IMG/VR virus record: IMGVR_UViG_3300037325_000262
Coordinates: 1 to 26,602 of that record
Source: a virus
Reading direction: 5' to 3' (one strand)
DNA: 26,602 nt
This document shows positions 4,070 through 20,527 of this stretch, piece by piece (within the stretch, counting starts at the first letter, position 1; the number at the start of each line of letters is the position of its first letter). The notes below the pieces were generated by a model. It did no database searches and was not told the DNA's origin. It worked only from the letters and a program-made list of their open reading frames with translations. Made by a program: the position numbers and the translations under genes.

Positions 4070-4297
4070 ATGGATTTAGGAATGAAAAACTGCATTAATG
4101 AATCAGACTTAATTAACGACTTTAAAAATTTTGATTTTTGGATTTTTTACAAGTATGATTATAGGTCTGACAGAAAGTTAGAATTTGACCAAAAAGGCAA
4201 CTTTAGGGTTGTCGAAAATCACAAAGAAATATATTTAGGCACTTCGCTAAGCGATGCCGTTCACAATTATAATTACAATACAAATGAACAAATTTAA
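4070..4297 (+). CDS. Hypothetical protein, 75 aa
   Basis: This 75-residue protein starts 3 nt after the previous stop. The sequence alternates aromatic and charged residues (FWIFYKYDYRSDRKLEFD) and ends FRVVENHKEIYLGTSLSDAVHNYN, which looks like a small beta-rich fold with a final helix. No family was recognised. It overlaps the next gene by 14 nt in another frame and belongs to the same unit. Confidence 0.5.
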   Translation: MDLGMKNCINESDLINDFKNFDFWIFYKYDYRSDRKLEFDQKGNFRVVENHKEIYLGTSLSDAVHNYNYNTNEQI

Positions 4298-4556: not shown

Positions 4557-4562
4557 AAAAAT

Positions 4563-4637
4563 ATGATGTTATTAGGGATTGTTTTATTAATATTGGTTGC
4601 GGCTTATTGCGACTATCTAAAAGATTTTAGAAAATGA
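4563..4637 (+). CDS. Tiny single-span membrane protein, 24 aa
   Basis: The ATG at 4563 opens 24 codons: MMLLGIVLLILVAAY, one membrane helix, then CDYLKDFRK, a short charged cytoplasmic-type tail. It lies 6 nt after the preceding stop, and its TGA overlaps the next start as ATGA (4634-4637), the usual spacing for coupled phage genes. The function is unknown. Confidence 0.5.
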   Translation: MMLLGIVLLILVAAYCDYLKDFRK

Positions 4638-5203: not shown

Positions 5204-5324
5204 AATTAAACGTATCGAGTTATGGGAAAATCATTTGGTTTTCCTTCAAAAAAACAAATTTAAAAACCGTGACAGGATTCAACATTGCGTCACGGTTTTA
5301 AAATCATTAAAAAAATTAACATGA
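5190..5324 (+). CDS. Small basic protein, 44 aa, overlapping both neighbours
   Basis: The ATG at 5190 opens 44 codons beginning MQLSKIKRIELWENHLVFLQ; the later part is KNKFKNRDRIQHCVTVLKSL. It overlaps the annealing-protein gene by 14 nt, and its TGA (5322-5324) overlaps the next ATG (5321) as ATGA. This chain of overlaps is the main reason to call it. It encodes an 11-bp inverted repeat within itself. The basic, helical product has no recognised family. Confidence 0.5.
   Translation: MQLSKIKRIELWENHLVFLQKNKFKNRDRIQHCVTVLKSLKKLT
5263..5299 (+). repeat. 11-bp perfect inverted repeat inside the 44-aa gene
   Basis: AAAACCGTGAC (5263-5273) and GTCACGGTTTT (5289-5299) form a perfect stem around a 15 nt loop, 21 nt before the next ATG at 5321. 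It could be a weak terminator, an operator for a dimeric regulator, or an RNA element tuning the coupled downstream start. Confidence 0.6.
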
Positions 5325-7476: not shown

Positions 7477-8070
7477 ATGGAAATATTAAATTTATATAGT
7501 GGTATTGGAGGCAATAGAGAATTATGGGGAAATAATCATAATATAACGGCGGTTGAAATAGATGAAAAACGAGCTTTAAAATATCAATTATTATTTCCTA
7601 ATGATATTGTAATTGTTGCGAACGCTCACGAATATTTACTTGACAACTATAAGAAATTCGATTTTATTTGGACTTCGCCGCCGTGCCAAACTCACAGCCG
7701 TGCAAACCACTTTATTAATAATGGAGTAGCAAAAAGACCGCGTTATCCAAATATGGAACTTTATCAAGAAATTATATTTTTAAGTAAGTTTTTTAAAGGG
7801 CTTTATTGTGTTGAAAATGTCATAAGTTATTACGAACCTTTAGTAAAGCCGTTAAAAATGGGGCGGCATTATATTTGGTCAAATTTTAAAATAAATAAAA
7901 TTGAATTGCCAAAAGCTGAAATCGGCTCAATGAAAAAAGGTTGGAATACTGCGAGTAAAACACATATTGACGAACGCAATAAATGCAACCCAATTTTAGG
8001 TGAACATATTTTAAATTGCAGTCAAGGCATATTTAAAGAACGTTCTGCAAAAGTTGGTTTTTTGTTTTAA
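7477..8070 (+). CDS. Compact C5-cytosine DNA methyltransferase
   Basis: This 197-residue enzyme transfers methyl groups from S-adenosylmethionine to cytosine C5 in DNA. Motif I is LNLYSGIGGN (4-13), motif II is VEID (26-29), motif IV with the catalytic cysteine is TSPPCQTHS (66-74, Cys70), motif VI is CVENV (111-115), and GRHYIWSNF (129-137) lies in the place of motif VIII. The canonical QxRxR and the C-terminal motif X are not evident, and the protein is about half the length of typical restriction-linked enzymes, so the target-recognition part is minimal. No restriction nuclease is adjacent. It begins 4 nt after the winged-helix gene and is bracketed by the 42-bp direct repeats, suggesting insertion as a cassette. 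Confidence 0.88.
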   Translation: MEILNLYSGIGGNRELWGNNHNITAVEIDEKRALKYQLLFPNDIVIVANAHEYLLDNYKKFDFIWTSPPCQTHSRANHFINNGVAKRPRYPNMELYQEIIFLSKFFKGLYCVENVISYYEPLVKPLKMGRHYIWSNFKINKIELPKAEIGSMKKGWNTASKTHIDERNKCNPILGEHILNCSQGIFKERSAKVGFLF

Positions 8071-8093
8071 AAAGCGAATCGAAATTTAATATT

Positions 8094-8147
8094 ATGACTT
8101 ATAAAGAAAAATTAAGAAACTTATTGACTAAACAAGGTAAAATCTAA
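8094..8147 (+). pseudogene. 17-codon ORF carrying the right copy of the direct repeat
   Basis: ATG at 8094 reads MTYKEKLRNLLTKQGKI and stops at 8145-8147. From Glu5 onward it repeats the C-terminus of the upstream winged-helix protein (8106-8147, 40 of 42 nt identical). It is most simply a leftover 3' end created when the methyltransferase gene was inserted, though translation as a small peptide is possible. The two differences are consistent with drift since duplication. Confidence 0.7.
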
Positions 8148-8151
8148 TATT

Positions 8152-8388
8152 ATGGAAAAGGTTTATATTATCCTTCACGGCGGAAATTATGACGGCTACA
8201 ATATTTTTCCGCACTTTTTTACGGATTTAGAAGCTGCTGAAAAAAAAGCGGTTTTTTTAGTGCAAGTTTACAATGACAATGCAAAAGGCAATAAATTAAA
8301 AAAAGACAAAAGCCAATATCTTTGTTATTCAAATTTGGCAGATTTTGTCGGCGTTATGGAATTAGAAAACGAATCAAAAATAAATTAA
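8152..8388 (+). CDS. Hypothetical protein, 78 aa
   Basis: The product starts MEKVYIILHGGNYDGYNIFP; its middle (TDLEAAEKKAVFLVQVYNDN) looks like a strand-helix unit. This resembles small phage proteins of unknown function that report a value with a 'HGG.YDGY' start, but no family can be named. It lies just after the direct repeat. Confidence 0.55.
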   Translation: MEKVYIILHGGNYDGYNIFPHFFTDLEAAEKKAVFLVQVYNDNAKGNKLKKDKSQYLCYSNLADFVGVMELENESKIN

Positions 8389-8389
8389 A

Positions 8390-8548
8390 ATGACAACGTA
8401 CCATATCACACTATCAAATGGAAAAGTCTTAGATTGTGATTATTTACGGCAAATTGAAAACGATTTTTTAGTGCGGCAAATTCACGAAACCGTTTTTAAT
8501 TTGATGCCAACAAACAAAATTTTAAACATCGAATTTAAACATAATTGA
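8390..8548 (+). CDS. Small protein, 52 aa, unknown
   Basis: ATG at 8390 opens 52 codons, starting one base after the previous stop and ending one base before the next gene's ATG at 8550. This tight packing supports it. The product reads MTTYHITLSNGKVLDCDYLR then FNLMPTNKILNIEFKHN, likely a small beta-hairpin plus helix. No family was recognised. Confidence 0.5.
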   Translation: MTTYHITLSNGKVLDCDYLRQIENDFLVRQIHETVFNLMPTNKILNIEFKHN

Positions 8549-8549
8549 A

Positions 8550-8786
8550 ATGAGAAAATTAACGATTGAAAATATCAAAGCAATTATTGAAAGCGTAGAG
8601 GGCAAATATATTATTTTTACAACCCGTGACGGATTTAGCTTAGCGGCAAACATTGCAGTATTAAAACACGCTTTTACGCTGCCTCGTTATCAAACCAAAA
8701 AGACTGACAGAACAATTACAAATTACGTATCTTATCGAAAATGTAGCTTTCAAGAGTATATTAGCAAAAAAGTAGGATTTATTTAA
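8550..8786 (+). CDS. Hypothetical protein, 78 aa
   Basis: This 78-residue protein begins with a predicted helix (MRKLTIENIKAIIESVEGKY), then a strand (IIFTTRDGFSLAANIAVLK), and a basic, aromatic C-terminal half. It has no membrane segment or catalytic motif. It is the last gene before the promoter at 8803. The function is unknown. Confidence 0.55.
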   Translation: MRKLTIENIKAIIESVEGKYIIFTTRDGFSLAANIAVLKHAFTLPRYQTKKTDRTITNYVSYRKCSFQEYISKKVGFI

Positions 8787-8802
8787 TCAGTTAGCTTTTT
8801 TT

Positions 8803-8833
8803 ATTGCTATTAAAAATATATTTTGTATATTTA
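8803..8833 (+). promoter_or_regulatory. Possible promoter with 19 nt spacer
   Basis: ATTG (8803-8806), 19 nt, then TATATTTA (8826-8833), which departs from TAnnTTTG only at the last base. It is weaker than the other promoters here but lies at the right place before the gene at 8864. Confidence 0.45.
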
Positions 8834-8836
8834 TCG

Positions 8837-8854
8837 AATTATTAACGACAATAT
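8837..8854 (+). repeat. 18-bp leader repeat, copy 1
   Basis: AATTATTAACGACAATAT occurs here and at 9098-9115, in each case shortly before a start codon (8864 and 9133). It suggests a shared leader or a duplicated upstream region. Confidence 0.75.
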
Positions 8855-8863
8855 AAATTTGAC

Positions 8864-9064
8864 ATGAAAAAAGAAAAGCAAGAAGCATTATCAAAAAAAG
8901 GACAATTAGTAATAAAAGAAAAAAAAGTTACTAAGCTCCAAATAAACCTATATGAAGGTAGTGAAAAATTCATTTCAATAAAATTGTATGATGAAAAAAT
9001 GAACGTAACAGTTTTTTATGTTGACATTGAACATAAAAAATCATTTAAAGAACTTTTTAAATAA
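8864..9064 (+). CDS. Small basic protein, 66 aa
   Basis: This 66-residue protein is very Lys-rich at the start (MKKEKQEALSKKGQLVIKEK) with a beta-like second half (KLQINLYEGSEKFISIKLYD). No membrane segment was seen. It is preceded by the possible promoter at 8803 and the 18-bp leader repeat. No family was recognised. Confidence 0.5.
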   Translation: MKKEKQEALSKKGQLVIKEKKVTKLQINLYEGSEKFISIKLYDEKMNVTVFYVDIEHKKSFKELFK

Positions 9065-9097
9065 CGTATTTTTTAGATTCGTAGAATTGATTACTTA

Positions 9098-9115
9098 AAT
9101 TATTAACGACAATAT
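9098..9115 (+). repeat. 18-bp leader repeat, copy 2
   Basis: Exact copy of AATTATTAACGACAATAT at 8837-8854, here 17 nt before the ATG at 9133. Confidence 0.75.
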
Positions 9116-9132
9116 TATAAAATTATAATTTT

Positions 9133-9390
9133 ATGCTATTTTTTCACCACTTACTTACTGTATTTGTAACGCTTATCGTTTTTACGATTGGTTTTGTGGC
9201 GGCTGTTTTATGGTTTGACTTTTCGACTAAAAAAGCACCGCCGAAAAGTATTACACCTGTAAAAACCGAACCAAAAGACGAGCCTACGGAACTGCCAATT
9301 ATCCACAAAAAAATAGAAGTTTGGAAGGTAGGCAGCGAAACTGAAATATTAGACAGTAGCTACCAAATGGCATGGAATTTACAAAAGTAG
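9133..9390 (+). CDS. Single-span membrane protein, 85 aa
   Basis: Residues about 4-28 (FHHLLTVFVTLIVFTIGFVA and onward) form one membrane helix. A Pro/Lys/Glu-rich linker (KKAPPKSITPVKTEPKDEP) and a short folded end (IHKKIEVWKVGSETEILDSS) follow. This layout, anchor then rigid linker then small domain, is common for phage envelope accessory proteins, but no family was recognised. Its leader carries the second copy of the 18-bp repeat. Confidence 0.6.
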   Translation: MLFFHHLLTVFVTLIVFTIGFVAAVLWFDFSTKKAPPKSITPVKTEPKDEPTELPIIHKKIEVWKVGSETEILDSSYQMAWNLQK

Positions 9391-9395
9391 ATTCA

Positions 9396-9545
9396 ATGAA
9401 AGTATCAATTAAAAGTAAGACCGATGACTTTTTTTACGTTCCTGTGAATCCAAATAGTTTAACAGAAGCGTTTGAAGTTATCGAAAATGAAGTAAATCGA
9501 GATTATCGAAGTATTAACGACTATTTTGATAATCTAAATATTTAA
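9396..9545 (+). CDS. Small acidic protein, 49 aa
   Basis: The ATG at 9396 opens 49 codons, 5 nt after the previous stop. An in-frame ATG at 9372 would add eight residues and overlap the previous gene; either is possible. The product reads MKVSIKSKTDDFFYVPVNPN, then an acidic helix (SLTEAFEVIENEVNRDYRSI). No family was recognised. It ends 19 nt before the membrane-protein gene at 9565. Confidence 0.5.
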   Translation: MKVSIKSKTDDFFYVPVNPNSLTEAFEVIENEVNRDYRSINDYFDNLNI

Positions 9546-9564
9546 ACGACAAAATTTAAAAGTA

Positions 9565-10863
9565 ATGACATTAGAACAAGACATCAAAACACGTCAAAAA
9601 AAAGTGTTTTTAGACGCCGCCGCAAATGAATTTAAGCCCAAAAGTTTTTATGATAAACACATAAAGACTATTCCATTCGCTGCCAATTTTTCAAAGCTTA
9701 TATTTTCGCCTATAAGTATTGCTTTTGGAGTTATCGCAGTTTATTCGATTGCGTTAAATTCTGTGGGTTTAAAGCTCACATTGATAGAATCATTAACGGG
9801 CAATGGTTATTTGCCTTATCTATTAATTGCGTTTTCAATTGCGTTTTTGGGCTTTATCGAGTTAGGGAAACATCATTTTTATAGCGAAGGATTTACGGAA
9901 TATTTTAGAAAAACAGATGACTTTGGCAGCCGTGAATTTCGCTTTGCAATATCTTTGCAATTAATTTCGGTGGCGTTTTCATTTTTTGGTGGTTATTTGG
10001 CTGCTAACGAAATTTCGGGAACTGAAAAAACAAAAGTACTCGAATCAATAAACAGCGAGTATGTACCAAAATTAGACGAAATTTCGGCAAAAATTAAAAA
10101 CTACGAAAGTGACGATTTTAAAAATGCTAATGGGAAAACGCTTTATAAAGTTATTCCAATTTTACAAGATTTAGAGGCACAAAAAGCGGCAATTGAAACG
10201 AGCTATAAAGCGGCAAAAGATAATGAAAATGTTAGTGATGGATTTGTAGCGGCAAACGCAATCGGAACAAATAAAATGATTTGGATATTGGGCGGCTCGC
10301 AAATTTTAATTGAAGTATTTTTAACATTTTCGATTTGGTGGGTAGTGTTTTTTAAAAGTAAATCGGTTTATGAATTAGGAATTACGGAAAGTGATATTGT
10401 ATCTATTGACAAAAATATTAAGTTGTCACCTTCCTACCCTACTCAAAATTTAGCACCTGCTTTAAATAGTGCTAAACGTCCGATAGGATTTAATAACACA
10501 CGACACAATAACACCGACACAAAAGAATTGACACACAACACAGACGGCACAAAGACACAACACAACGTCAAGAATGAGGTGTCACAAGCGGCACAACAAA
10601 ACACGGCACACTTAACAATCACGAATATAGATTTAAGTGATGAAAAAAAAAGGGTACGTTTATATACGCCTCGAATTTTTGAAAAGTACACAGAAAAACG
10701 CCTTGAGACACTAAAAAAAGATATTAAAAAACTTGCGAAATTTGGTTATTCAGTTACGATTGAAAAAGACAAAAAAGCAAATATTCGTAAAAATATTGAA
10801 TTGGAAAGTGGAGTAGTGGTAAATTTTGGACATAACGGATTAACAATAAAATACGAAAAATAA
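9565..10863 (+). CDS. Four-helix membrane protein with long cytoplasmic tail
   Basis: This 432-residue protein has four likely membrane helices at about 44-68, 81-101, 127-148 and 237-263. A charged, helical segment (150-225) lies between helices 3 and 4. After helix 4 comes an Asn/Thr/His/Gln-rich linker (about 305-350), encoded by a strikingly A/C-rich, T-poor stretch, and then a basic C-terminal domain (about 360-432; [20 protein letters not shown]). Similar membrane proteins of unknown function occur in Bacteroidetes phages. A role in tethering replication to the membrane or excluding other phages is speculation. Its stop overlaps the thyA start by one base (TAATG), so the two are coupled. 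Confidence 0.6.
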
Positions 10864-11657
10864 TGATACAATATTTAGACTTATTAAAAGATATTTTGGA
10901 CAACGGTATTGAACGAGGCGACAGAACAGGAACGGGAACTTTAGCCGTTTTTGGTCGCCAAATTCGATTCGATTTAAGCGAGGGTTTTCCTGCCGTAACA
11001 ACTAAAAAGCTCCATTTGAAATCAGTTATACACGAATTATTATGGTTTTTGAATGGTGACACAAATATTAAATACTTGAATGACAACGGCGTAAAGATTT
11101 GGAATGAGTGGGCAAATGAAAACGGCGAATTAGGTAAAGTGTATGGTAAACAATGGCGAAGTTGGGAAACAAAAGACGGCAAAACAGTTGACCAAATTAC
11201 GCAAGTGATTAATTCAATTAAAAAGAATCCAAACAGCCGCCGACATATCGTAACGGCTTGGAATCCTACCGACTTGCCGCAAATGGCTTTAAGCCCTTGT
11301 CACTGTATTTTTCAGTTTTTTGTTGCAGACGGGAAACTAAGTTGTCAATTATATCAAAGAAGTGCGGACACATTTTTAGGCGTGCCTTTCAATATCGCTT
11401 CTTACGCTTTATTGACTATGATGGTCGCACAAGTTTGTAATTTAAAAGTAGGCGAATTTGTACATACGTTTGGAGATGCACACTTGTATTTGAACCATTT
11501 AGAACAAGCAAGATTACAACTTACGAGGCAACCTAAAACGCTGCCAACGATGACGATTAACAAAGCCGTAAAAGATATATTTTCGTTTAAATATGAAGAT
11601 TTTAAATTGTTAAATTACAATCCACACGCAAAAATTAAAGCAAAAATTTCAATATAA
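10863..11657 (+). CDS. thyA: Thymidylate synthase (ThyA)
   Basis: The protein is 264 residues, the same length as E. coli ThyA, and its active-site numbering falls in register. It shows RGDRTGTGT (18-26), GKVYGKQWR (91-99), [11 protein letters not shown] (125-135), the catalytic Cys146 in [23 protein letters not shown] (164-177) and HTFGDAHLY (201-209). It methylates dUMP to dTMP with methylenetetrahydrofolate. Asn177 is present, the residue that favours dUMP; dCMP hydroxymethylases of the same fold carry Asp there, so this enzyme most likely makes ordinary dTMP rather than a modified precursor. The C-terminus KAKISI is close to the usual ending. It boosts nucleotide supply during phage replication. 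Confidence 0.97.
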
Positions 11658-11662
11658 AAATT

Positions 11663-11989
11663 ATGGAAAGTGAATTTATTTATGAAAAATGTTTTTTGAA
11701 ATTCATTAAAGATAATGGATTAGAAATAACCTCAGAGCTATCTTCTACGGATATGTATATTGCTTACGGGTTAAAGAAAAAAGGTGTCCCAATTTTCAAA
11801 ACATATTTAAAGCCTACGGATTTTTACATTTGTTTTATGTATAATGCACGTGGAAATTGCAAATTTAGCTTTGATTTAGATACTACTTTTTCTGAAATTT
11901 CCTTTATTCAAAAAGTACAAGAAACTTTAGATTCTAAAATTAAATATAGAAATTGGTCATACAAATGGGACTTAAGCAGTTGCATATAA
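11663..11989 (+). CDS. Hypothetical protein, 108 aa
   Basis: This 108-residue protein starts 5 nt after thyA. It looks like a compact alpha/beta sequence with many aromatic residues (KPTDFYICFMYNARGNCKFS) and a helical segment (SFIQKVQETLDSKIKYRNW). No catalytic pattern or membrane helix was seen. It is co-transcribed with thyA; the function is unknown. Confidence 0.55.
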   Translation: MESEFIYEKCFLKFIKDNGLEITSELSSTDMYIAYGLKKKGVPIFKTYLKPTDFYICFMYNARGNCKFSFDLDTTFSEISFIQKVQETLDSKIKYRNWSYKWDLSSCI

Positions 11990-12000
11990 TTATAAAAATT

Positions 12001-12342
12001 ATGGGATATACAGCAAGATTAATAATTGACGGCAACTTCAAAAATTCGGAAAACTTTCATAAAACATTAAACAACTTAATGTCTAAAGTGTATCGTGACG
12101 GCTTTTTTAGAGTGCAAAGCGGCAGCGGTGACACGGTAGAAGTAATAGTAATCGCAGACGTAAGAGTTTGCAGCACAACTTACGAAAGTTCTAAAAGCGG
12201 CGACAGCAATTTGCATGATTTAATCAAGGCATTAGAGCCGTTTAACGACACATCGAATACCGGTTTAAATACTTACGCTTTGTTGTTTTATGATGAAGAC
12301 GAACGCCCTATTTTTTTTGATGTTTTAGACGAAAATAAATAA
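12001..12342 (+). CDS. Hypothetical protein, 113 aa
   Basis: The ATG at 12001 was chosen over an in-frame ATG at 11953, since the extra residues would overlap the previous gene and read as an unlikely leader. The product starts MGYTARLIIDGNFKNSENFH and contains a strand-rich middle (DTVEVIVIADVRVC) and an acidic end (LLFYDEDERPIFFDVLDENK). No family was recognised. It is the last gene before a terminator. Confidence 0.55.
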   Translation: MGYTARLIIDGNFKNSENFHKTLNNLMSKVYRDGFFRVQSGSGDTVEVIVIADVRVCSTTYESSKSGDSNLHDLIKALEPFNDTSNTGLNTYALLFYDEDERPIFFDVLDENK

Positions 12343-12349
12343 TTATAAA

Positions 12350-12387
12350 AAAGTCGGTACGTTGCTATTAAACAGCCTACCGACTTT
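12350..12387 (+). terminator. Terminator after the thyA unit
   Basis: AAAGTCGGTA (12350-12359) pairs perfectly with TACCGACTTT (12378-12387). GCT/AGC inside adds an inner stem. Only short T stretches follow, so it is an imperfect but likely terminator. Confidence 0.7.
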
Positions 12388-12416
12388 CTAAACTTTATTT
12401 TATAATATATCGTAAA

Positions 12417-12452
12417 TATATTTGTTTTATCAATTAATGTTTTGTAGTTTTG
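12417..12452 (+). promoter_or_regulatory. Bacteroidetes-type promoter for the primase unit
   Basis: TATATTTG (12417-12424), a 20 nt spacer, then TAGTTTTG (12445-12452), a full match to TAnnTTTG. It drives the SSB-like and primase genes. Confidence 0.82.
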
Positions 12453-12485
12453 TGGTAGAAATTAATCAAAAACTATTTATTAACT

Positions 12486-12704
12486 ATGACGATAAAACAA
12501 AAAGAAGACAGCGTAATTTTTGAAATTCTTAATCGGTTGGGATTTATAGCAGATTACAACCCGTTAGGCGTTTTTGAACTATTGAATAATGTAAACTTCT
12601 TAAATAATTTTAATGAAGCCGCAAACGGGGATTATTCAAAGGATTTATTGAATATGAAGGAATTTATTATTGAACAACTAAATATTAAGACAAATGAGTT
12701 ATGA
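12486..12704 (+). CDS. Small helical acidic protein, 72 aa
   Basis: This 72-residue protein is predicted helical (KEDSVIFEILNRLGF, GVFELLNNVNFLNNFNEAAN). It overlaps the SSB-like gene by 11 nt. The context, first in the operon with SSB-like protein and primase, hints at a replication accessory, but no family was recognised. Confidence 0.55.
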   Translation: MTIKQKEDSVIFEILNRLGFIADYNPLGVFELLNNVNFLNNFNEAANGDYSKDLLNMKEFIIEQLNIKTNEL

Positions 12705-13071
12705 AATGACGGGGTTTTTGCACCTCAAAGAAGACACAAAACAGTTAAGTGAGAAATTCAAAAAGCGTGAATTTATATTGGAGGTGCAAGATGGTAATTA
12801 TACGCAATTCCCAAAATTGCAATTGATTCAAAAAAATTGCGACTTGTTAGACGATATCGACATAAACGCAGAAATTACCGTAAGTTTCAACGTGCAAGGC
12901 AAGCCTTATACGAATAAAGAAAACGTAACTTTGTATTTTACAAACCTTACGGCATGGAAAATTGAAAAGGTTGCAACGGAACAACCCGCCGCAAAAAGTA
13001 CGAGCCGTGAACAAACGTTAAAAGCGATAGAAAATTTAGATGAAGACTTAGGAAGTGACCTTCCGTTTTAA
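12694..13071 (+). CDS. DUF3127 OB-fold protein (SSB-like)
   Basis: This 125-residue protein shows the DUF3127 pattern: MSYEMTGFLHLKEDTKQLSE, then FKKREFILEV (22-31), FPKLQLIQKNCDLLDDIDI (39-57), VSFNVQGK (63-70) and YFTNLTAWKIEKV (81-93). This family, common in Bacteroidetes and their phages, has an OB fold and is thought to bind single-stranded DNA. After a Pro/Ala/Ser linker it ends NLDEDLGSDLPF, an acidic tip with a terminal Pro-Phe like that of bacterial SSB, which recruits replication proteins. Its position before primase fits a role as phage SSB. Function is inferred from family and tail. Confidence 0.8.
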   Translation: MSYEMTGFLHLKEDTKQLSEKFKKREFILEVQDGNYTQFPKLQLIQKNCDLLDDIDINAEITVSFNVQGKPYTNKENVTLYFTNLTAWKIEKVATEQPAAKSTSREQTLKAIENLDEDLGSDLPF

Positions 13072-13083
13072 AATAGAAATAAC

Positions 13084-14421
13084 ATGATAGCATCTAAGAC
13101 AATCGAAAGTGTAAAGGCATTAAGCATAAAAGATGTAACTGCTTTATACGTTGACTTGAAAAATGTTGGCAGCAACTTCAAAGGTTTATGCCCTTTACAC
13201 TCAGAAAAAACGCCCTCTTTTACAATTAGCATATTACATAATAATTATAAATGCTTTGGTTGTGGTGAGGGCGGCGATGCTATTGATTTAGTAAGAAAGA
13301 TTGAAAGGTGCGACTTTACAGAAGCGGTGCGAATCATTAGTGATAAGTTTGCAATTGATTATGTCGAAGTTGAAACAGACGAATACAAGCGTTTAAAGGT
13401 GTATTCTAACGCAATAGAAACGGTTTACAAAAGTAACAAGCCGTCACAAGAACAAATCAAGTTACTACATGAAATTAATCTTTGCAATAAGTACGGTTTT
13501 TTATTAAAGAATAGAAAACTGTTTGCAATTAAAGACGAAAACGGACTTTATCGAGGTTTGTCGGGTCGTAGATTAAATGACAATGACAAGTCACCAAAAT
13601 ATATTAATTCGCCACAATCGGAAATTTATAATAAGTCGCAACTATTATATAATCTATACGAGGCAAAGCAAGAAATTCGTAAACAAAACCAATGTTTTTT
13701 ATGCGAAGGATTTACGGACGTAGATACGTTAAAAAACAGCGGCGTTCTAAACGTTGTCGCAAATTGCGGCACTGCTTTTACTTCGGAACAAGCTAATTTG
13801 ATAAAAAGATATTGCGATGTTGTCGTCATATTTTTTGATGGTGACAAGGCAGGATTAACGGCAACTTATAAGGCTTTAGATATTGCGTTAAAAGTTGGTT
13901 TACAGGTGCAAGCTATCTTTTTACAAGATAATGAAGACCCGAAGGACTACTTAACAAGCGGCAAACATCTAAAAGATTTAAAACCGATTGACTTGCTAAT
14001 TCAAAAGTCAAATCTTACGGCAACAATTATAGATTTACAACTAAAACAGCAAAAAATTAAGTCTATTGTAGCATCGTTAAATTGTATTAAGTCGCCTATA
14101 TATCTTGATATGTATGTAGTAAAGATTTGCGAAATATTGGATTTAAGGCACGAAACTGTTTACACTGAAATAAGTACACTAAAGGCAAAAACGGACGTTG
14201 TAAAACAAGCCATAACGCCGTCAAACGATAGCGAAACGATAATACCAAAACCAACAAACAAACTTAGACAAATGCACAAAGATATTTTAGTAAATGATTA
14301 TTTCAAAAAGTTGGAAAATCATATCGAGGCAATTAACAAAATGACGCAACCAAGCGAAATTTTTAAATCCTTGGGGCTTCATTTAGATATGAAAAAACGA
14401 CATAAATTTTTAAGTAAATGA
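13084..14421 (+). CDS. dnaG: DnaG-type DNA primase
   Basis: This 445-residue protein has a CHC2-type zinc finger: C36PLH39 and C57FGC60 (in CPLHSEKTPSFT and YKCFGCGEGGDAIDLV). A TOPRIM catalytic domain follows, with CEGFTDVDTL (207-216) and the metal-binding FDGDKAG (251-257); Glu208 and the two Asp residues of the DGD are the expected metal ligands. The C-terminal 140 residues are helical and probably contact the helicase. The enzyme makes RNA primers for lagging-strand synthesis. It is shorter than E. coli DnaG (581 aa), as usual for phages. It follows the SSB-like gene by 12 nt and overlaps the next gene as ATGA. Confidence 0.93.
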   Translation: MIASKTIESVKALSIKDVTALYVDLKNVGSNFKGLCPLHSEKTPSFTISILHNNYKCFGCGEGGDAIDLVRKIERCDFTEAVRIISDKFAIDYVEVETDEYKRLKVYSNAIETVYKSNKPSQEQIKLLHEINLCNKYGFLLKNRKLFAIKDENGLYRGLSGRRLNDNDKSPKYINSPQSEIYNKSQLLYNLYEAKQEIRKQNQCFLCEGFTDVDTLKNSGVLNVVANCGTAFTSEQANLIKRYCDVVVIFFDGDKAGLTATYKALDIALKVGLQVQAIFLQDNEDPKDYLTSGKHLKDLKPIDLLIQKSNLTATIIDLQLKQQKIKSIVASLNCIKSPIYLDMYVVKICEILDLRHETVYTEISTLKAKTDVVKQAITPSNDSETIIPKPTNKLRQMHKDILVNDYFKKLENHIEAINKMTQPSEIFKSLGLHLDMKKRHKFLSK

Positions 14422-14747
14422 CAAACTATTATTCAAAAGTAAAAAAATTAGGGTGGGTAGTTTTAGACCCAAAAAAAGGAATCTACATAAAATATGTTTG
14501 CGGCAACTTTTTAATTATAGATTTTGAAAAATTAATAATTTCACAATATTTTCAAGACGCAACCGATAAAGGTTTGCGTATTTGGGGTACTGAAAATATT
14601 GATTTTGAAGGTGATTTTACTTTCAACGATATAACTTTAGAGTTGTTCGTTTTGGTTGAACAACGTTTTAATTTTAGAAAAATGGAGCAAGCTTGTAGGT
14701 TTGGAATTGATAATGAATTTGTTCAAAGCATTATTAATTCACTATAA
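14418..14747 (+). CDS. Hypothetical protein, 109 aa
   Basis: The ATG at 14418 overlaps the primase stop (ATGA). The product reads VKKLGWVVLDPKKGIYIKYV early and contains strands and an acidic turn (ENIDFEGDFTFNDITLELFV), ending in a helix (FNFRKMEQACRFGIDNEFVQ). No known motif was seen. Coupling to primase suggests a replication-related role, but this is inference. Confidence 0.55.
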   Translation: MTNYYSKVKKLGWVVLDPKKGIYIKYVCGNFLIIDFEKLIISQYFQDATDKGLRIWGTENIDFEGDFTFNDITLELFVLVEQRFNFRKMEQACRFGIDNEFVQSIINSL

Positions 14748-14770
14748 AAACGACATAAATTTTCAAAAAA

Positions 14771-14917
14771 ATGAATGAATTAGAAATTTTACAAAGTGAA
14801 ATTAAAAATACATTAGAAAGTATTAAAAAATTAAAATTTCACATTGAATTACACAAAGCAGAATTGATTAATTACAGAAAAATGTTAAAAAGCAAAAAAC
14901 TAAAAGAAAATGATTAA
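14771..14917 (+). CDS. Small coiled-coil protein, 48 aa
   Basis: The ATG at 14771 opens 48 codons: MNELEILQSEIKNTLESIKK, then a basic helix ending KMLKSKKLKEND. Heptad-like Leu/Ile spacing predicts a coiled coil. It overlaps the next ATG (14910) by 8 nt, fitting the local style. The function is unknown. Confidence 0.5.
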   Translation: MNELEILQSEIKNTLESIKKLKFHIELHKAELINYRKMLKSKKLKEND

Positions 14918-15095
14918 AATAGGCGACAAAATCGAAAAATTTATAATCGGTGGTTATGAATATGACGAATGTATAATTGAATTTGATGACGTTTTATATG
15001 CTTACGTAGGAGTAGATAAAGAAACAGGTTCACGGGGTTTGTTATACCAACATTTAGACAGTTTAAAATATCAAAATGATAAAAATAGACATTAA
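14910..15095 (+). CDS. Small protein, 61 aa
   Basis: The product starts MIKIGDKIEKFIIGGYEYDE and continues as a strand-rich stretch (CIIEFDDVLYAYVGVDKETG), as in small SH3-like beta barrels. It overlaps neighbours by 8 and 20 nt. No family was recognised. Confidence 0.5.
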   Translation: MIKIGDKIEKFIIGGYEYDECIIEFDDVLYAYVGVDKETGSRGLLYQHLDSLKYQNDKNRH

Positions 15096-15705
15096 ACAGA
15101 ACGGAGTTAGTAATATAATAAAGTTTCCTTATTCGGCAACCGAAATTCTTTATAAAGACTTTTGCGATTATAGAATTTGGTTTGAAATCCAACCTCTTTG
15201 GTTTAAAAATTCGGATTGGCACGAAAAAGAAGCGGACTACGCTTTAAAGATTATTGAAGGTATTAGGCTATTGACTAAAGTAGATTTATCCTACTTAGAT
15301 TTGACAAACATATTGGTTGACGGTATGGCAATAAAACTTGATAGTTTGCTACATTCTATTTTAATCAATTGCAGAGCCGCAAATGACGCAAGTAGCATAA
15401 TCGAGTATAAAGGCGATTGGTATCAGCTTGACGATACAAAAACGGTACATTTAGGAATTATGGCAATGTATGTAGAAAACAAGTACAAAGTTACGCACGA
15501 AGGTGACGTAAACGACTATAATAAAACGCTTTATCATACTGCTATTTTTGCAAGAAAACGACTTATAGGACGTAAGGAAACGCTGCCAAAAGACCGTCAA
15601 AGTTGCGAGGCATTAATTGAAACAAGAGTAAAACACTTTCAAGATATTACCTTACAGGACGCCATGACTATACGTTTTTTTTTTCGATATGGTTCGGCGA
15701 AATAA
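15076..15705 (+). CDS. Protein of 209 aa, probably extended by -1 frameshift
   Basis: In the zero frame this gives 209 residues ending MTIRFFFRYGSAK. The codons TTT TTT TTT lie in a run of ten T (15675-15684), and the zero frame stops seven codons later. In the -1 frame the sequence stays open to a TAA at 15927-15929, giving a product of about 284 residues. The main part is aromatic and helical (YRIWFEIQPLWFKNSDWHEK; DLTNILVDGMAIKLDSLLHS), without catalytic motifs I can name. Frameshifted pairs are typical of tail assembly chaperones, but no tape-measure gene is nearby, so that role is doubtful. A homopolymer indel in the genome or its assembly is the alternative. Confidence 0.6.
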   Translation: MIKIDIKQNGVSNIIKFPYSATEILYKDFCDYRIWFEIQPLWFKNSDWHEKEADYALKIIEGIRLLTKVDLSYLDLTNILVDGMAIKLDSLLHSILINCRAANDASSIIEYKGDWYQLDDTKTVHLGIMAMYVENKYKVTHEGDVNDYNKTLYHTAIFARKRLIGRKETLPKDRQSCEALIETRVKHFQDITLQDAMTIRFFFRYGSAK

Positions 15706-15929
15706 ATAGTCATAAATTTTACAGACGGGTTTTTAAATCAATACACACGCCGCCACAAGTTGACGACAAAACGAGATTAAGAAACGACCGCTATTTAAAC
15801 GAATTTAGCAATTTTGTGTGGCTGAAAATCTTGATAGATGGTAACGTGTTCGGGAACTTACAACAGACGCTAAACGGTAACTTTTACGATGCGTTATTTT
15901 ATTTATCAATGTATTATAATCAACCGTAA
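15684..15929 (+). other. -1 frame extension after the T10 slippery run
   Basis: Reading shifts from the 15076 frame to -1 at 15675-15684. The extension runs 81 codons, beginning SIWFGEINSHKFYRRVFKSI and ending YDALFYLSMYYNQP. It has no internal ATG until four residues before its last part, so it is unlikely to be an independent gene. Its aromatic, Lys/Asn-rich composition matches the upstream part. Confidence 0.6.
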
Positions 15930-15930
15930 A

Positions 15931-15962
15931 ATTGCAAACGTCACATATAAATAGTATATTTG
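15931..15962 (+). promoter_or_regulatory. Bacteroidetes-type promoter for the packaging unit
   Basis: ATTG (15931-15934), a 20 nt spacer, then TATATTTG (15955-15962), a full -7 match. It begins 2 nt after the stop of the frameshift extension and precedes the terminase operon. Confidence 0.72.
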
Positions 15963-15985
15963 CATTCAATCAAAACATTATCAAA

Positions 15986-16039
15986 ATGACAATAGAATCA
16001 AAACTTAAAATCACAAAGTTTAGATTTTCAAAATTATAA
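15986..16039 (+). CDS. Possible 17-aa leader peptide
   Basis: ATG at 15986 reads MTIESKLKITKFRFSKL and stops at 16037. The 20 nt ending in this ATG (ATCAAAACATTATCAAAATG) are identical to those ending at the ATG of the gene at 22003, so ribosomes probably start here. It may be a leader peptide of the packaging operon or a remnant. Confidence 0.35.
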   Translation: MTIESKLKITKFRFSKL

Positions 16040-16065
16040 CAAAACAATAAATAAACAATAGAAAA

Positions 16066-16602
16066 ATGACTGCAAATACAGAAGAGTACCCCTTAAAACG
16101 GATTTATAGCATTAACGAGGGTAAAGCGTACTTAAATTTAAACGATTGCGTACGTAGCTATTATAGAGATTTTACAAATAATGTAGATTCAAAAGTAATA
16201 CACAAGACAATTGTAAGAATGCGAGCCGCTGTAAAACAAAAACTTTACTATTTTGAAGACCAAAAAAGCGGTTTAAGTTTGTCAATTGCAAATGGTAACG
16301 AAAAGGTTACAGATGTAGAAAAAAACTACCTACCTTCAAGGATGCGAGGGTACAAAATAAACGGTGGTAAAATAGAAAAAAGTCTTAAAACTGCAATTGA
16401 ATCATCTTTACAAGGTAGGGAAACGGACGAATCAAAAAAGGCTTATTGGCGAGTGTACGGAAATTTGATTTTAAAGAAAAAATATGATTATTTTGATGAA
16501 ATCACACAATTAGAAGTAAATGTCTTTAATTTGGAAAGCTACGAAAAGCGATACAATTTAAAAAACAACGTACATGATAATAACAGATACAAGAGTAATT
16601 GA
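16066..16602 (+). CDS. Hypothetical protein upstream of the large terminase, 178 aa
   Basis: This 178-residue basic protein overlaps the large terminase gene by 29 nt and occupies the place where a small terminase often lies. It contains YSINEGKAYLNLNDCVRSYY, a Lys/Arg-rich middle (HKTIVRMRAAVKQKLYYFED) and a charged, helical end (YEKRYNLKNNVHDNNRYKSN). No helix-turn-helix pattern is obvious, and a better small-terminase candidate is present at 20162. It could be a packaging accessory or DNA-binding protein; no family was recognised. Confidence 0.55.
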   Translation: MTANTEEYPLKRIYSINEGKAYLNLNDCVRSYYRDFTNNVDSKVIHKTIVRMRAAVKQKLYYFEDQKSGLSLSIANGNEKVTDVEKNYLPSRMRGYKINGGKIEKSLKTAIESSLQGRETDESKKAYWRVYGNLILKKKYDYFDEITQLEVNVFNLESYEKRYNLKNNVHDNNRYKSN

Positions 16603-17767
16603 AAGAACAACCGCGGGATTAAAAAGAGGGGCTGCCTACATAATACATCAAGGCGGCACCTCGTCGGGCAAAACTTACGGTAACTGTTACGCTATAATTT
16701 CGCACCTGCTTTACGAAAAGAAAAAAGAAAAATTAACGGTATCAATAGTATCAATAAATTTTCCACATTTGCGTAAAGGAGCAATGCGAGATTTTGAAAA
16801 TATAATTTTAGATTGTGGGCTTAGTCACTTAATAGAACATAATAAATCTAACCATACTTTTAAATTTCCAAACGGTTCCGTAGTGGAATTTTTCAGTGTT
16901 GACAGCTACGAAAAGGCGTTAGGTTTACGGCGTGACATTTTATTTATAAATGAGTGCAATTCAATAGCTTATGACGTATTTTTTCAACTATCAATAAGAA
17001 CACGGAAAACGATAATTTTAGATTACAATCCTACTTCAAAATTTTGGTTTCAAGAGAAGTTACTGCCTACTTTAAAAAATTCCGATTACATCTACACCCG
17101 AACGACTTATAGAGATAATAAAGCACTTTCGGACGTAATTAGAAAGCGTATTGAATCAATACAAGACGACTATCTTAGACAAGTTTATGTTGAAGGTAGA
17201 ACGGGCAAGATAGAGGGGCTTATATTCACAAAATATACTATTGTAGATGAGTTTCCAACCGATGCAAAGCAGGTCGGTTACGGGCTTGACTTTGGATTTA
17301 GTATCGACCCGACCGCTTTAGTAAAATGCGGCGTTTTAGATGGTTGTTTATACATAGAGGAGCTAATATATGAAAAGGGCTTATTAAATAGAGATTTGGC
17401 AAAAAAAATGAAGGAACATGGCATAAGTCAAAGCACGAACATATGGTGTGACAATCAACCGAACACCGTTTTTGAGCTTAAAAAAGTGTTTTTTTATAAT
17501 GCTAAAATTGTAAAAAAAGGTGCGGATAGTATATTGGCAGGGCTTGACACCATGAAACAATTTAAAATTTGTATTGTAAAAGGCTCAAATAACATCATAA
17601 AAGAGTTTGAAAATTACAAGTGGGAAACAAGGCGAGGCGAACCAACGGGCAAGCCTATTGACGACCATAATCACGGAATTGACGGGACGCGCTACTTCGC
17701 AAAAGGGAACTTAATGCGTAACAGGTCAAACAAAGATAGAACAGGGCAAACATCATTCACTTTATAA
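16574..17767 (+). CDS. terL: Phage terminase large subunit
   Basis: This 397-residue packaging motor has an N-terminal ATPase and a C-terminal RNase H-like nuclease. The Walker A is GGTSSGKT (27-34), Walker B is LFINE (123-127) followed by CNSIAYDVFFQL, and IILDYNPTSKFWF (147-159) is the typical PBSX/phage segment after it. The nuclease part shows YGLDFGFSIDPTALV (236-250; Asp239), CDNQP (292-296; Asp293) and PIDDHNHGIDGTRYF (361-375; Asp363/364). It pumps DNA into the prohead and cuts concatemers. The start MIITDTRVIERTTAGLKRGA overlaps the preceding gene by 29 nt. A fragment of another terminase follows. Confidence 0.95.
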   Translation: MIITDTRVIERTTAGLKRGAAYIIHQGGTSSGKTYGNCYAIISHLLYEKKKEKLTVSIVSINFPHLRKGAMRDFENIILDCGLSHLIEHNKSNHTFKFPNGSVVEFFSVDSYEKALGLRRDILFINECNSIAYDVFFQLSIRTRKTIILDYNPTSKFWFQEKLLPTLKNSDYIYTRTTYRDNKALSDVIRKRIESIQDDYLRQVYVEGRTGKIEGLIFTKYTIVDEFPTDAKQVGYGLDFGFSIDPTALVKCGVLDGCLYIEELIYEKGLLNRDLAKKMKEHGISQSTNIWCDNQPNTVFELKKVFFYNAKIVKKGADSILAGLDTMKQFKICIVKGSNNIIKEFENYKWETRRGEPTGKPIDDHNHGIDGTRYFAKGNLMRNRSNKDRTGQTSFTL

Positions 17768-17778
17768 ATACTTAAAAA

Positions 17779-17943
17779 ATGAATAATCTAAAAAAAGACC
17801 AAAACGGTAATGAAAATTTTACATTTGTAAATGAGGCAAGTTATATTGACAAATCAGTTTTTAGTCAGTTAAAAAAATTGAACGAATCAATTATAATTTT
17901 GGAATATAATCCAACGGACAATTTTTGGCTTAGCAAAATGTAA
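17779..17943 (+). pseudogene. Fragment of a second terminase large subunit, 54 aa
   Basis: ATG at 17779 opens 54 codons ending in TAA at 17941. Residues 16-51 (FVNEASYIDKSVFSQL, then IIILEYNPTDNFWL) align without gaps to residues 124-159 of the upstream terminase, 17 of 36 identical by eye. They cover only the Walker B strand and the following YNPT region. Walker A and the nuclease are missing. The divergence shows it is not a recent tandem copy but a piece from a related phage or an old paralogue. It may be a recombination scar; a small regulatory paralogue is possible. Confidence 0.7.
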
Positions 17944-17978
17944 AACTTTATCACAAAAAATACGTAAATTTATATATT

Positions 17979-18683
17979 ATGAAATTAAAAGACCTTAAAA
18001 CGAATGCAAAAAACCCTCGAATTTTAAAAGATGCGAGGTTTAAAAAATTGCTTAACAAAGTACTATGTTATCCAAATTTATTATCTAAAAATAAATTGAC
18101 TTACGATAGCAGCGATGCAAATACCGTATTAGGCGGCAATCAACGCCTTGCGACACTTAATTATATAATCAAGTCTATCAGTACTAAACAGTTAGAAGAC
18201 AGCGTTAAAGCCGCACAAAAAGCGTTAGGACTTGAAAACGAATTACTGTTAAATAATTCAATAGCAATATTTACAGAAATTAAAGAAACGAAATCAATAC
18301 CGTCCGACTGGGTGCAAGATGTACAAGGATTAAGCGAAGACGAAAAACAAGCGTTTATCCTTATAGATAATTTGAACGACGGCGAATGGGACTTAGACGA
18401 AATAGCGAACAAGTGGGATATTGATACAGGTGAATGGGGCTTAGTAAGTTGGAACGATTTTAATACAGATGACGAAGTAGATTATTCAATTTTAGACGGC
18501 GAAGATGACTTATCGGAAAGTGTAAGCGATATGTCAAACAGCGTAAAAAAAGCAATACAAATTGAATTTGATTTAGAACACTATGAAGCCGCTTATGAAG
18601 TTATAAAGTTTTGGCGAGGTGAAGGAGCGAACATAGGTAAAATGATTTTAGATTATTTGGAAAGTGAAAAGGATAAATTATGA
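17979..18683 (+). CDS. ParB-like domain protein
   Basis: This 234-residue protein has the ParB/sulfiredoxin-type fold pattern found in many Bacteroidetes phages: LKDLKTNAKNPRILKDARFK (3-22), YPNLL, then VLGGNQRLATL (50-60), which corresponds to the ParB GERR nucleotide-binding box. Downstream are IPSDWVQDVQGLSEDEKQAF and the repeated DNLNDGEWDLDEIANKWD and GEWGLVSWN motifs typical of this phage subgroup, followed by an acidic stretch and a helical C-terminus. Such genes often sit beside DNA methyltransferases and terminases, and the family has been linked to DNA modification and binding. It overlaps the FkbM-like gene by ATGA. The enzymatic activity, if any, is unknown. Confidence 0.78.
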   Translation: MKLKDLKTNAKNPRILKDARFKKLLNKVLCYPNLLSKNKLTYDSSDANTVLGGNQRLATLNYIIKSISTKQLEDSVKAAQKALGLENELLLNNSIAIFTEIKETKSIPSDWVQDVQGLSEDEKQAFILIDNLNDGEWDLDEIANKWDIDTGEWGLVSWNDFNTDDEVDYSILDGEDDLSESVSDMSNSVKKAIQIEFDLEHYEAAYEVIKFWRGEGANIGKMILDYLESEKDKL

Positions 18684-19372
18684 AGACAAAAACCATAAAA
18701 GGAATAAAGTTTTTTTATAGAGATAGCACAAGCGACCTCAAAACTTTTGAAGAGGTTATAGGTAAAGACGTTTACCAAAAAAAAGGCATGAAGATATTAG
18801 CTGGTGAAACGTGGATTGATTGCGGCGGCAACGTTGGAGCTTTTACATTATTAGCGTGTAGTTTGGGTGCAAATGTTATCGTTTATGAACCCGACCCATA
18901 CAATTGCGAAATGATTAAAAAGAATCTAAAATTAAACGGCTTTACAGCAAAGATAAGGCAGGTTGCTTTGGTTCACGATAATACAAAAAAAGCTAATTTG
19001 TATATAGGTAATAACGGCAACGTATGGAGAAATTCACTGTTTAAAAATTGGAACGGAAAAGGCTTAAAGGTAGATTGTGTAAACTTTGATGACGAAATTA
19101 AAGATGGTGTTTGCATCAAAATAGATATCGAAGGAGCGGAAATGCTTATCCTAGAATCTACTAATAGAAAGTTTAAAAAAATGGTTTTTGAATGGAGTTT
19201 TGATATTGATTATTCATTAGAAAGGTTTTGGAATATCATTGAAAAACTTCAAAAAATATACAACGTTAAAGATGTTGGCAATACTGCCAAATTCAAAACA
19301 AGGGATTACAACGTATGGCAAAAGTCGTGGTTTCCTGCCTGCACAAATGTATTTTGTTATGAAAAGAATTGA
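18680..19372 (+). CDS. FkbM-type SAM-dependent methyltransferase
   Basis: In this 230-residue protein, motif I is WIDCGGNVGAFTL (45-57), motif II is VYEPDPYNCEMIKKN (68-82), and the late motif is IKIDIEGAEMLIL (146-158), the hallmark of FkbM methyltransferases. Members methylate hydroxyl groups of sugars and other small groups; here the acceptor is unknown. It overlaps both neighbours (ATGA with the ParB-like gene and 14 nt with the putative oxygenase gene), so the three are co-translated. That makes a shared target, such as an oxidised base in phage DNA, a reasonable hypothesis. No DNA-recognition domain is visible. Confidence 0.82.
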   Translation: MKTKTIKGIKFFYRDSTSDLKTFEEVIGKDVYQKKGMKILAGETWIDCGGNVGAFTLLACSLGANVIVYEPDPYNCEMIKKNLKLNGFTAKIRQVALVHDNTKKANLYIGNNGNVWRNSLFKNWNGKGLKVDCVNFDDEIKDGVCIKIDIEGAEMLILESTNRKFKKMVFEWSFDIDYSLERFWNIIEKLQKIYNVKDVGNTAKFKTRDYNVWQKSWFPACTNVFCYEKN

Positions 19373-20150
19373 TTTAATAAAATTGGAACACAGCACAAAA
19401 ATAGGTCAACCTTGCGACTCTATTAAACCAAACGTTACAGAAGATTGTATCTTTTATGTCGATGGCGTTGCAATAGGTTTTTATTTGCGTGTGATGCCTT
19501 TAAAAATGCAAAAGTTAGCAAACTTAGCAGATAAAGAGTTAAGAAGTAAGAACGTGCCAAAGGCTACTATGAATAGGAGGACAGGAGTGGGCAAAGATGA
19601 AAAAGGAAAATATATATATATAAACGAAGTTGCTCAGTATTCCGCTATTTTAGGAGCTATTGCACCGAAACCACATATGAGGCGAAATTACCCAAACTTA
19701 TCAAGTGTTCACTTAGTTAAGACCGCACAAACTTTTATTAAATCTATGCTATTATTAGCAAATGAAGCCGAACAATTGATAAAAGAAATACTTCCCGAAC
19801 AACACGCAAAACAAAAAAAGTTGTTTGAACAGGTAAACGATAAATGGAAATTTGGAAACCTTTGGACAAGCTCAATATCAAATTATAATATTGCAGCACC
19901 TTATCGCCGCGACACACAAAATATTGTTGGAGCGGTTAATGTAATTATCACGAAAAGAAAGAACGCCGTAGGTGGCAATCTAAACGTTCCCGACTATGCA
20001 GCGACTATTGATAGTTGTGATAATTCGATACTTGTTTATCCTGCGTGGCAAAATGTACATGGAGTGACGCCGATAATTCCAACAGCGAAAGGCGGCTACC
20101 GAAATAGTTTAATATTCTATCCTTTGAAAGCGTTTATAGGCTTAGATTAA
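19359..20150 (+). CDS. Putative TET/JBP-like 2-oxoglutarate dioxygenase
   Basis: The ATG at 19359 (MKRIDLIKLEHSTK) was chosen over an in-frame ATG at 19239 because the extra 40 residues lie inside the FkbM-like gene. The 263-residue protein has a C-terminal pattern like phage TET/JBP oxygenases: YRRDTQN (182-188), VNVIITKRKNAVGGNL (193-208), PDY, NSILVYPAW (222-230), VHGVTPI (233-239) and GGYRNSLIFYPLKAF (245-259). His234 and Arg248 fit the distal iron ligand and the 2-oxoglutarate anchor. The expected HxD is R183-R184-D185, so the first iron ligand seems replaced. If active it could oxidise 5-methylcytosine made by the phage methyltransferase. Family assignment is from remembered motifs and is tentative. 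Confidence 0.5.
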   Translation: MKRIDLIKLEHSTKIGQPCDSIKPNVTEDCIFYVDGVAIGFYLRVMPLKMQKLANLADKELRSKNVPKATMNRRTGVGKDEKGKYIYINEVAQYSAILGAIAPKPHMRRNYPNLSSVHLVKTAQTFIKSMLLLANEAEQLIKEILPEQHAKQKKLFEQVNDKWKFGNLWTSSISNYNIAAPYRRDTQNIVGAVNVIITKRKNAVGGNLNVPDYAATIDSCDNSILVYPAWQNVHGVTPIIPTAKGGYRNSLIFYPLKAFIGLD

Positions 20151-20161: not shown

Positions 20162-20527
20162 ATGACAAATAGAGACACTAATAAAAAAGCATTGATTGAA
20201 GCCCTTGAAAAAACGATGGGAATCGTTACAAGGGCTTGTCAATTGGTTGACATATCTCGAAATACATTTTACAGATATTACAATGATGACGAGGCATTCA
20301 AAGCTAAGGTTGACGATATCGAAAACATCGCTTTAGACTTTGCTGAATCAAAACTTCATAAAATGATAGGCGATGAAAACACCGCCGCTGTGATATTCTA
20401 CTTAAAGACCAAAGGCAAAAAACGAGGGTACATTGAACGTAACGAAGTAACGGGTGCGGAAGGTTCACAAATTAATTTTGTCGTTGCCTTGCCCTCGAAA
20501 GATATAACATCAGACGAAATTGATTAA
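20162..20527 (+). CDS. terS: Probable small terminase subunit (helix-turn-helix)
   Basis: This 121-residue protein has a helix-turn-helix (MGIVTRACQLVDISRNTFYR, 19-38), then a long helix (DIENIALDFAESKLHKMIGD) and NTAAVIFYLKTKGKKRGYIE (73-92). This is the pattern of small DNA-binding proteins annotated as terminase small subunits in Bacteroidetes phages. Its role would be recognition of the packaging site and presentation of DNA to the large subunit. It lies downstream of, not upstream of, the large subunit gene, separated by the modification-type genes. A transcription regulator with the same fold is the alternative. Confidence 0.6.
   Translation: MTNRDTNKKALIEALEKTMGIVTRACQLVDISRNTFYRYYNDDEAFKAKVDDIENIALDFAESKLHKMIGDENTAAVIFYLKTKGKKRGYIERNEVTGAEGSQINFVVALPSKDITSDEID

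Follow-up and report, generated by a model that had tools for sequence, protein, structure and literature searches.

A viral stretch of 26,602 nucleotides (nt), IMG/VR record IMGVR_UViG_3300037325_000262 (hereafter the window), encodes beside its large terminase subunit (TerL) three overlapping genes for a ParB-like protein, an FkbM-type methyltransferase and a TET/JBP-type oxygenase. Comparison with related loci shows, through gene order, that FkbM occupies the place of a decorating or tailoring enzyme between ParB and TET. The three genes are read here as a cassette for hypermodification of phage DNA bases, ParB-tailoring enzyme-TET, in which FkbM is the tailor and thymine would be converted to 5-hydroxymethyluracil (5hmU) and then to 5-(methoxymethyl)uracil, a reading judged evenly poised between right and wrong. 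An earlier note on this DNA had described the same genes together with a distant C5-cytosine methyltransferase, and had explained the four as a cytosine hypermodification pathway. The observation is confirmed and the interpretation is partly supported. All four genes are present, with their families upheld by profile searches; the ParB-like and FkbM genes overlap by 4 nt and FkbM and TET by 14 nt. The placement of a base-modification cassette against the packaging genes likewise holds, in the order TerL - ParB - FkbM - TET - small terminase subunit (TerS)-like. The window contains 64 open reading frames of at least 60 amino acids, and among the 20 proteins scanned with Pfam there was no restriction nuclease family, as the note had said.

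Scanned with the window FkbM, viral sequences gave 97 stretches that encode a relative, and the best 80 were kept. TET directly follows FkbM in all 80, separated by -26 to +19 nt (-83 in locus L108, where the FkbM match begins late), and ParB directly precedes FkbM in all 74 kept loci with at least 500 bp upstream. TerL lies within 4 kb downstream in 52/80 kept loci, and in 35/54 of those with 3 kb of room, as detected with three TerL queries only. Among 41 TET loci, ParB is found before TET in 39, and the other two (L028 and L039) begin at a contig edge. The position between them, here termed the slot, is variable. Across 125 loci it holds FkbM in 93 (two contigs being counted twice), a glycosyltransferase in 16, a P-loop kinase-like protein alone in 7, and an amino acid:DNA transferase (ADDT), alone or accompanied by kinase-like and PLP-like proteins, in 7, leaving two with no slot enzyme by the queries used. 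One of these two, the locus of phage Tonitrus, matches ADDT (9.4e-23) and a kinase (3.6e-50) by Pfam. FkbM never occurs together with another slot type in these loci, within the flanks covered. Of the slot glycosyltransferases, five were scanned; against the model for TET-associated glycosyltransferases (TAGT), two score above the cut-off and two below it, and one matches phrog_842 only. The slot kinase-like proteins match P-loop families weakly. ParB and TET lie at the genome start, near the terminase, in the actinophages Tonitrus, CloverMinnie, Nigel and Prince. The constant unit is ParB-slot-TET, and not the set of C5-methyltransferase, ParB, FkbM and TET that had been proposed as a unit. 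A variant arrangement is seen in L018-L022 and L024, where two consecutive ParB-like genes precede TET and ADDT follows, in most cases with a kinase-like protein too; five of these six loci also encode a 335-residue protein that matches only phrog_3650 (function unknown) and appears PLP-like by eye.

How readily is the slot exchanged? In a quickly built tree of 121 TET rows (89 of them different), which has long branches and 27 of its 86 inner branches open, the four slot types cost 12 changes, and branches of at least 95 alone force 5 changes for FkbM and a minimum of 7 for the glycosyltransferase label. The TETs of L037 and L038 are 97.7% identical, yet the first accompanies a kinase-like protein and the second a glycosyltransferase; judged from sequence, this contrast is a recent cartridge exchange. 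Where the tailoring enzyme is swapped beside a near-unchanged oxygenase, the alternatives most likely share that oxygenase's product as their substrate, and the case for methylation of the TET-made hydroxyl by FkbM draws mainly on this exchange. The proposal that FkbM performs the final step on the TET product thus gains from its constant place in the tailoring slot and from the alternation of slot types; the cytosine substrate attached to that proposal does not gain with it. A broader formulation, of a ParB-associated cartridge system in which the final tailoring enzyme is swapped, a thymine-oxidising TET is kept and the FkbM cartridge makes 5-(methoxymethyl)uracil, is offered tentatively, at somewhat less than an even chance. 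Methylation by FkbM of a sugar placed by a glycosyltransferase was also considered and rejected: the TAGT model matched in 0/24 FkbM records against 3/6 others, a result that is not final, the model having missed one of four glycosyltransferase carriers (L017).

The TET/JBP assignment is firm for the family, on both profile and model comparisons. As a single protein, the window TET matches Tet_JBP (PF12851) at 1.7e-4, under the curated cut-off, and phrog_6059 at 7e-49; all 28 aligned family members match PF12851 at E <= 0.1, the best at 1.4e-13. Its AlphaFold2 model (mean pLDDT 93.4) has a double-stranded beta-helix fold and is nearest to human TET2 (Foldseek 5.9e-11; VIA Z 19.1, 3.3 A over 240 residues), in agreement with the oxygenase family first suggested; the outcome that the earlier note had named as refuting it, a structure of another fold, did not occur. 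NgTet1 (VIA Z 19.0), CcTet and CMD1 are further solved relatives, and all score above FTO (14.4). Queuine tRNA-ribosyltransferase (TGT), the label under which the TET gene has been filed, is ruled out by the fold in both Foldseek and VIA.

The methyltransferase matches PF05050 (4.1e-12) and TIGR01444 (1.5e-16), both above their cut-offs, and phrog_28597 (2.7e-78). PF05050 is the FkbM family, which we take to be one of O-methyltransferases. The FkbM model has a mean pLDDT of 90.7 and a Rossmann-type methyltransferase fold. The FkbM structure 2py6 is matched weakly in sequence (0.0039) and is absent from the 50 best VIA matches, which excludes nothing. No bacterial homologue above 33% identity is present among the best 80 of 215, and in sequence this FkbM subfamily looks viral. 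The ParB-like protein matches phrog_498 (9.7e-7) and phrog_620 (1.7e-3), both weakly, and matches nothing in Pfam at E <= 0.01, ParB_N included, whereas ParB_N (PF02195) is matched by 16 of the 21 homologues aligned from cassettes. Proteins with a ParB domain are also found alongside CmoX, a phage cytosine carboxymethyltransferase, their precise function being given as unknown (PMC12783734), so ParB alone does not tell which base is modified.

The cassette would work as follows. The ParB-like protein is expected to bind DNA and may place the machinery. TET/JBP, for which the fold and the family active site are observed, would act on a pyrimidine base of existing DNA, most likely thymine, and hydroxylate its methyl group to give 5hmU. 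FkbM, whose slot equivalence is observed, would then move a methyl group from S-adenosylmethionine (SAM) onto the new hydroxyl to yield 5-(methoxymethyl)uracil. The position of the genes suggests that the mark is set before packaging and may shield phage DNA from host nucleases.

Which base is the substrate? Sequence and analogy make thymine more likely than cytosine. In the published TET structures (PMC7854593, PMC4224472), N4 of 5-methylcytosine (5mC) is read by Asn1387/Asp234 and N3 by His1904/His297 in TET2/NgTet1, while Tyr1902/Phe295 stack on the ring. A profile alignment to TET2 places Asn1387 on Asn188 of the window TET, Tyr1902 on Tyr254 and His1904 on Leu256. At position 256, 120 of the 123 TETs have Leu, 2 have Ile and 1 has a gap, and Leu is also found beside other slot types. 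The residues at 188, 254 and 256 are common to the window TET and that of Tonitrus, and the Tonitrus ParB/TET/ADDT/kinase set is termed thymidine hypermodification (THM) by its authors (PMC11955845). Mycobacterium phage Acadian, whose TET is within reach of searches with the window TET family, is named as a possible producer of GlcNAc-5hmU in PMC4111573. The TET of Mycobacterium phage Prince is deposited as a 'thymidine hydroxylase' beside ADDT and a kinase. Elsewhere in the ParB-TET family a kinase, ADDT or both occur; in the window, the slot queries found no relative of a 5hmU kinase, ADDT or glycosyltransferase.

A number of points weigh against thymine oxidation followed by methyl capping, and they bear on three other explanations. 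The TET2 profile alignment, on which the Leu256 assignment rests, is weak (whole-sequence E 0.032, domain i-Evalue 2.2), and the thymine labels of Tonitrus, Acadian and Prince are annotations or predictions, not assays. CcTet has Arg for the N3-reading His and oxidises 5mC nonetheless, according to PMC11040006, so the pocket is a hint and not proof. One alternative is the cytosine route, in which a C5-methyltransferase makes 5mC, TET converts it to 5-hydroxymethylcytosine and FkbM produces 5-(methoxymethyl)cytosine. This is considered unlikely. Burke et al. in 2021 reportedly described phage TETs acting on phage-made 5mC, with further decoration; the window resembles that pathway in its TET/JBP oxygenase and in having a C5-methyltransferase-like gene elsewhere, and departs from it in that this gene is not conserved with the cassette and that 24 FkbM records give no TAGT match. 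The gene does encode a compact C5-cytosine methyltransferase-like protein as claimed: the PF00145 match is above the cut-off, phrog_363 (DNA methyltransferase) is matched at 1.2e-11, and the protein aligns with DNMT2 through SPPCQ (the Pro-Pro-Cys motif). The PF00145 match covers profile positions 1-80 of 324 only, the remainder being unmatched, and the gene lies 9.9 kb from the cassette, a distance that the earlier note had passed over. PF00145 is present in 9/66 TET-carrying records (4/23 + 5/41 + 0/2), the window included, and in 8/49 of those with FkbM; the nine carriers are scattered over the TET tree, costing nine changes. It is found in none of five isolates with a TET cassette (MED4-184, MED4-117, Tonitrus, CloverMinnie and Nigel), two of which carry FkbM, the MED4-184 and MED4-117 records being titled genomic sequence and not complete genome. 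Among TET records of at least 35 kb it is again absent (0/6 of the first 64 and two added records above 60 kb, thus 0/8), though the same 64 give 7/31 at 20 kb or more and 3/15 at 30 kb or more. Relatives of the compact enzyme occur in 13 phage records, the 13th being that of Arthrobacter phage Pointis, and at least 12 of them lie outside the 89 TET records; two contigs with such a relative (fragments of 11.8 and 27 kb) yielded no TET in a search that lacked a positive control. The replacement of the N3-reading His by Leu also speaks against cytosine, whereas Asn188 aligns with the residue of TET2 that contacts N4 of 5mC. Further in favour of cytosine, L007 encodes a compact C5 enzyme 53% identical to that of the window about 0.9 kb before ParB, most TET records are fragments, and 5mC made by the host could serve as the substrate source. 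The terminase relatives taken as a TET-less control gave one distant locus only, and the PF00145 counts thus stand without a background rate. For these reasons the cytosine pathway is lowered and not killed. A pathway using the window C5-methyltransferase is nevertheless unsupported by these counts; the enzyme at 7477 is probably a separate one and the cassette probably independent of it.

A further alternative retains TET but gives FkbM another use of SAM: it would esterify a 5-carboxy base made by TET, or transfer another part of SAM as TYW2 does. In VIA, the FkbM model scores best against RNA methyltransferases (Trm5, PH1915 and the RlmKL type), and its Z of 13.7 is middling; this counts against the O-methylation proposed here, as does the fact that, to our knowledge, no FkbM enzyme has been shown to act on DNA. 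TYW2 is also among the top structural matches, 5 of the 36 aligned members weakly match TRM5-TYW2_MTfase, and animal TETs oxidise as far as the carboxyl (PMC11040006). All 36 members match FkbM PF05050, however, and a shared Rossmann fold says little on chemistry, and this alternative is held to be quite improbable. A different difficulty lies in the window's own TET copy. At residue 183, the place of the first ligand of the HxD...H iron triad, the window has Arg where 122/122 other aligned sequences (an alignment of 123 that counts two contigs twice) have His, as do 123/123 relatives after the addition of three actinophage TETs and the removal of repeats. The triad is complete across the family and incomplete here, although Asp185, His234 and the 2-oxoglutarate-binding Arg248 are retained. 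The earlier cassette reading, sound in its genes, had overlooked this substitution. Of six genes set against their L002 counterparts, TET has diverged furthest (protein identity 89%, the others 92-100%), with a ratio of nonsynonymous to synonymous substitution rates (dN/dS) of 0.127 against 0.024-0.123. The cassette might then be broken, the phage having lost an iron ligand from TET and making no modified base. That is a serious possibility, if on balance a doubtful one. Among columns conserved in at least 95% of the 123 TETs, residue 183 is the window's sole departure, and the dN/dS still shows purifying selection, so TET is no old pseudogene; together these indicate that Arg183 is recent, or else an artefact of base calling or assembly. 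Searching for exact copies of the 21-base site, with one base or the other, yielded no further contig, and the Arg allele is thereby neither confirmed nor dismissed. By its sequence the window copy is either recently dead or contains a misread base, and the pathway is drawn from the family.

The methyl-capping cassette can be set beside several known systems. The THM set of the Rhodococcus phage Tonitrus comprises ParB, TET/JBP, ADDT (aGPT-Pplase2) and a 5hmU DNA kinase; it shares with the window a ParB near TET/JBP and terminase, the presence of decorating enzymes and the three pocket residues, and differs in that the decorating enzyme of the window is an FkbM methyltransferase. Mycobacteriophages of the Prince, Nigel, Acadian cluster, with ParB-TET at the genome start, resemble the window in a ParB gene placed before TET, there directly, and a terminase close by; Prince has ADDT and a kinase, and Nigel a kinase. 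Their TETs are only about 28-32% identical to that of the window, and no FkbM is present in the Prince and Nigel stretches viewed. Nigel does not lack a slot enzyme, its 'terminase small subunit' being a P-loop kinase (PF18751 2.9e-72). In Prince (L225, PQ184799.1), positions 1-5206 encode in a row ParB, TET, ADDT deposited as a DNA glycosylase, a kinase deposited as an adenylate kinase, and the terminase. Kinetoplastid base J, made by JBP1/2 and a glucosyltransferase, offers the same logic of thymine oxidised to 5hmU by TET/JBP with the hydroxyl then capped, as outlined in PMC4111573; here a methyl cap is predicted in place of glucose, and in a phage, not a eukaryote. The cassette itself is found in the Prochlorococcus phages MED4-184 and MED4-117, with ParB, FkbM, TET and terminase in the order named. 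Relative to the window, TET is 47% and FkbM 51% identical, and HxD is intact there. Prochlorococcus phage P-HS2 matches at the same coordinates. The deposited annotations of the Prochlorococcus phage cassette genes read DNA methylase, hypothetical protein and queuine tRNA-ribosyltransferase. Such labels are misleading: across phrog_6059, NC_020847.1 and NC_011044.1, TET/JBP appears as queuine tRNA-ribosyltransferase, the ParB-like protein of MED4-184 as DNA methylase and the Nigel kinase as the small terminase subunit.

If the proposed route is correct, phages finish the hydroxymethyl pyrimidines made by TET with a simple methyl cap, which would be new both as DNA base chemistry and as a role for FkbM. 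In 5-(methoxymethyl)uracil, a small ether cap would replace a sugar or amino acid. The swap pattern would supply, ready-made in nature, a set of enzymes expected to work on one and the same substrate base and to attach different groups to it. The cassette is common and is present in cultured Prochlorococcus phages, and is therefore directly testable. A literature search, which did not cover Iyer 2013, Burke 2021 or Lee 2021/22, found no report of an FkbM-TET cassette or of a methoxymethyl base in phage DNA; with these key papers outside it, priority is not claimed.

Table 1. Cassette genes, their diagnostic codons and neighbouring genes in the window.
Feature	Coordinates	Strand	Evidence
ParB-like protein, first cassette gene	17979..18683	+	phrog_498, phrog_620, weak
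FkbM-type SAM methyltransferase in the tailoring slot	18680..19372	+	PF05050, TIGR01444, phrog_28597
TET/JBP-type 2-oxoglutarate/Fe(II) oxygenase	19359..20150	+	PF12851, model, Foldseek, VIA
Codon 183, Arg replacing the first iron-ligand His of HxD	19905..19907	+	Alignment
Codon 256, Leu aligned with TET2 His1904	20124..20126	+	Weak profile alignment
Probable small terminase subunit directly after TET	20162..20527	+	HTH_8 2.6e-7; phrog_309 terminase small subunit 9.7e-8
Large terminase subunit	16574..17767	+	PF04466 2.4e-13, PF17288 1.4e-11, TIGR01547 3.3e-31
Compact C5-cytosine methyltransferase-like gene, judged outside the cassette	7477..8070	+	PF00145 3.1e-6, N-terminal part

Elsewhere in the window, no near DNA match to positions 1-25000 was found among phage records. 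A full thymidylate synthase gene (thyA) is present at 10863-11657; its consideration as a nucleotide hydroxymethylase ended with its match to thymidylate synthase equivalogs (NF002497 5.7e-145), the sole check made. Between TerL and ParB, a frame of 54 amino acids at 17779-17943 aligns with an inner part of TerL (47% over 36 residues, 3.4e-9). In sequence it looks like what is left of a second terminase, and may point to recombination at the TerL/ParB junction. Towards the end of the window, the small neighbouring genes at 25476-25715 and 25830-26078 share 77 of the 90 nt at their start and diverge thereafter, a partial duplication.

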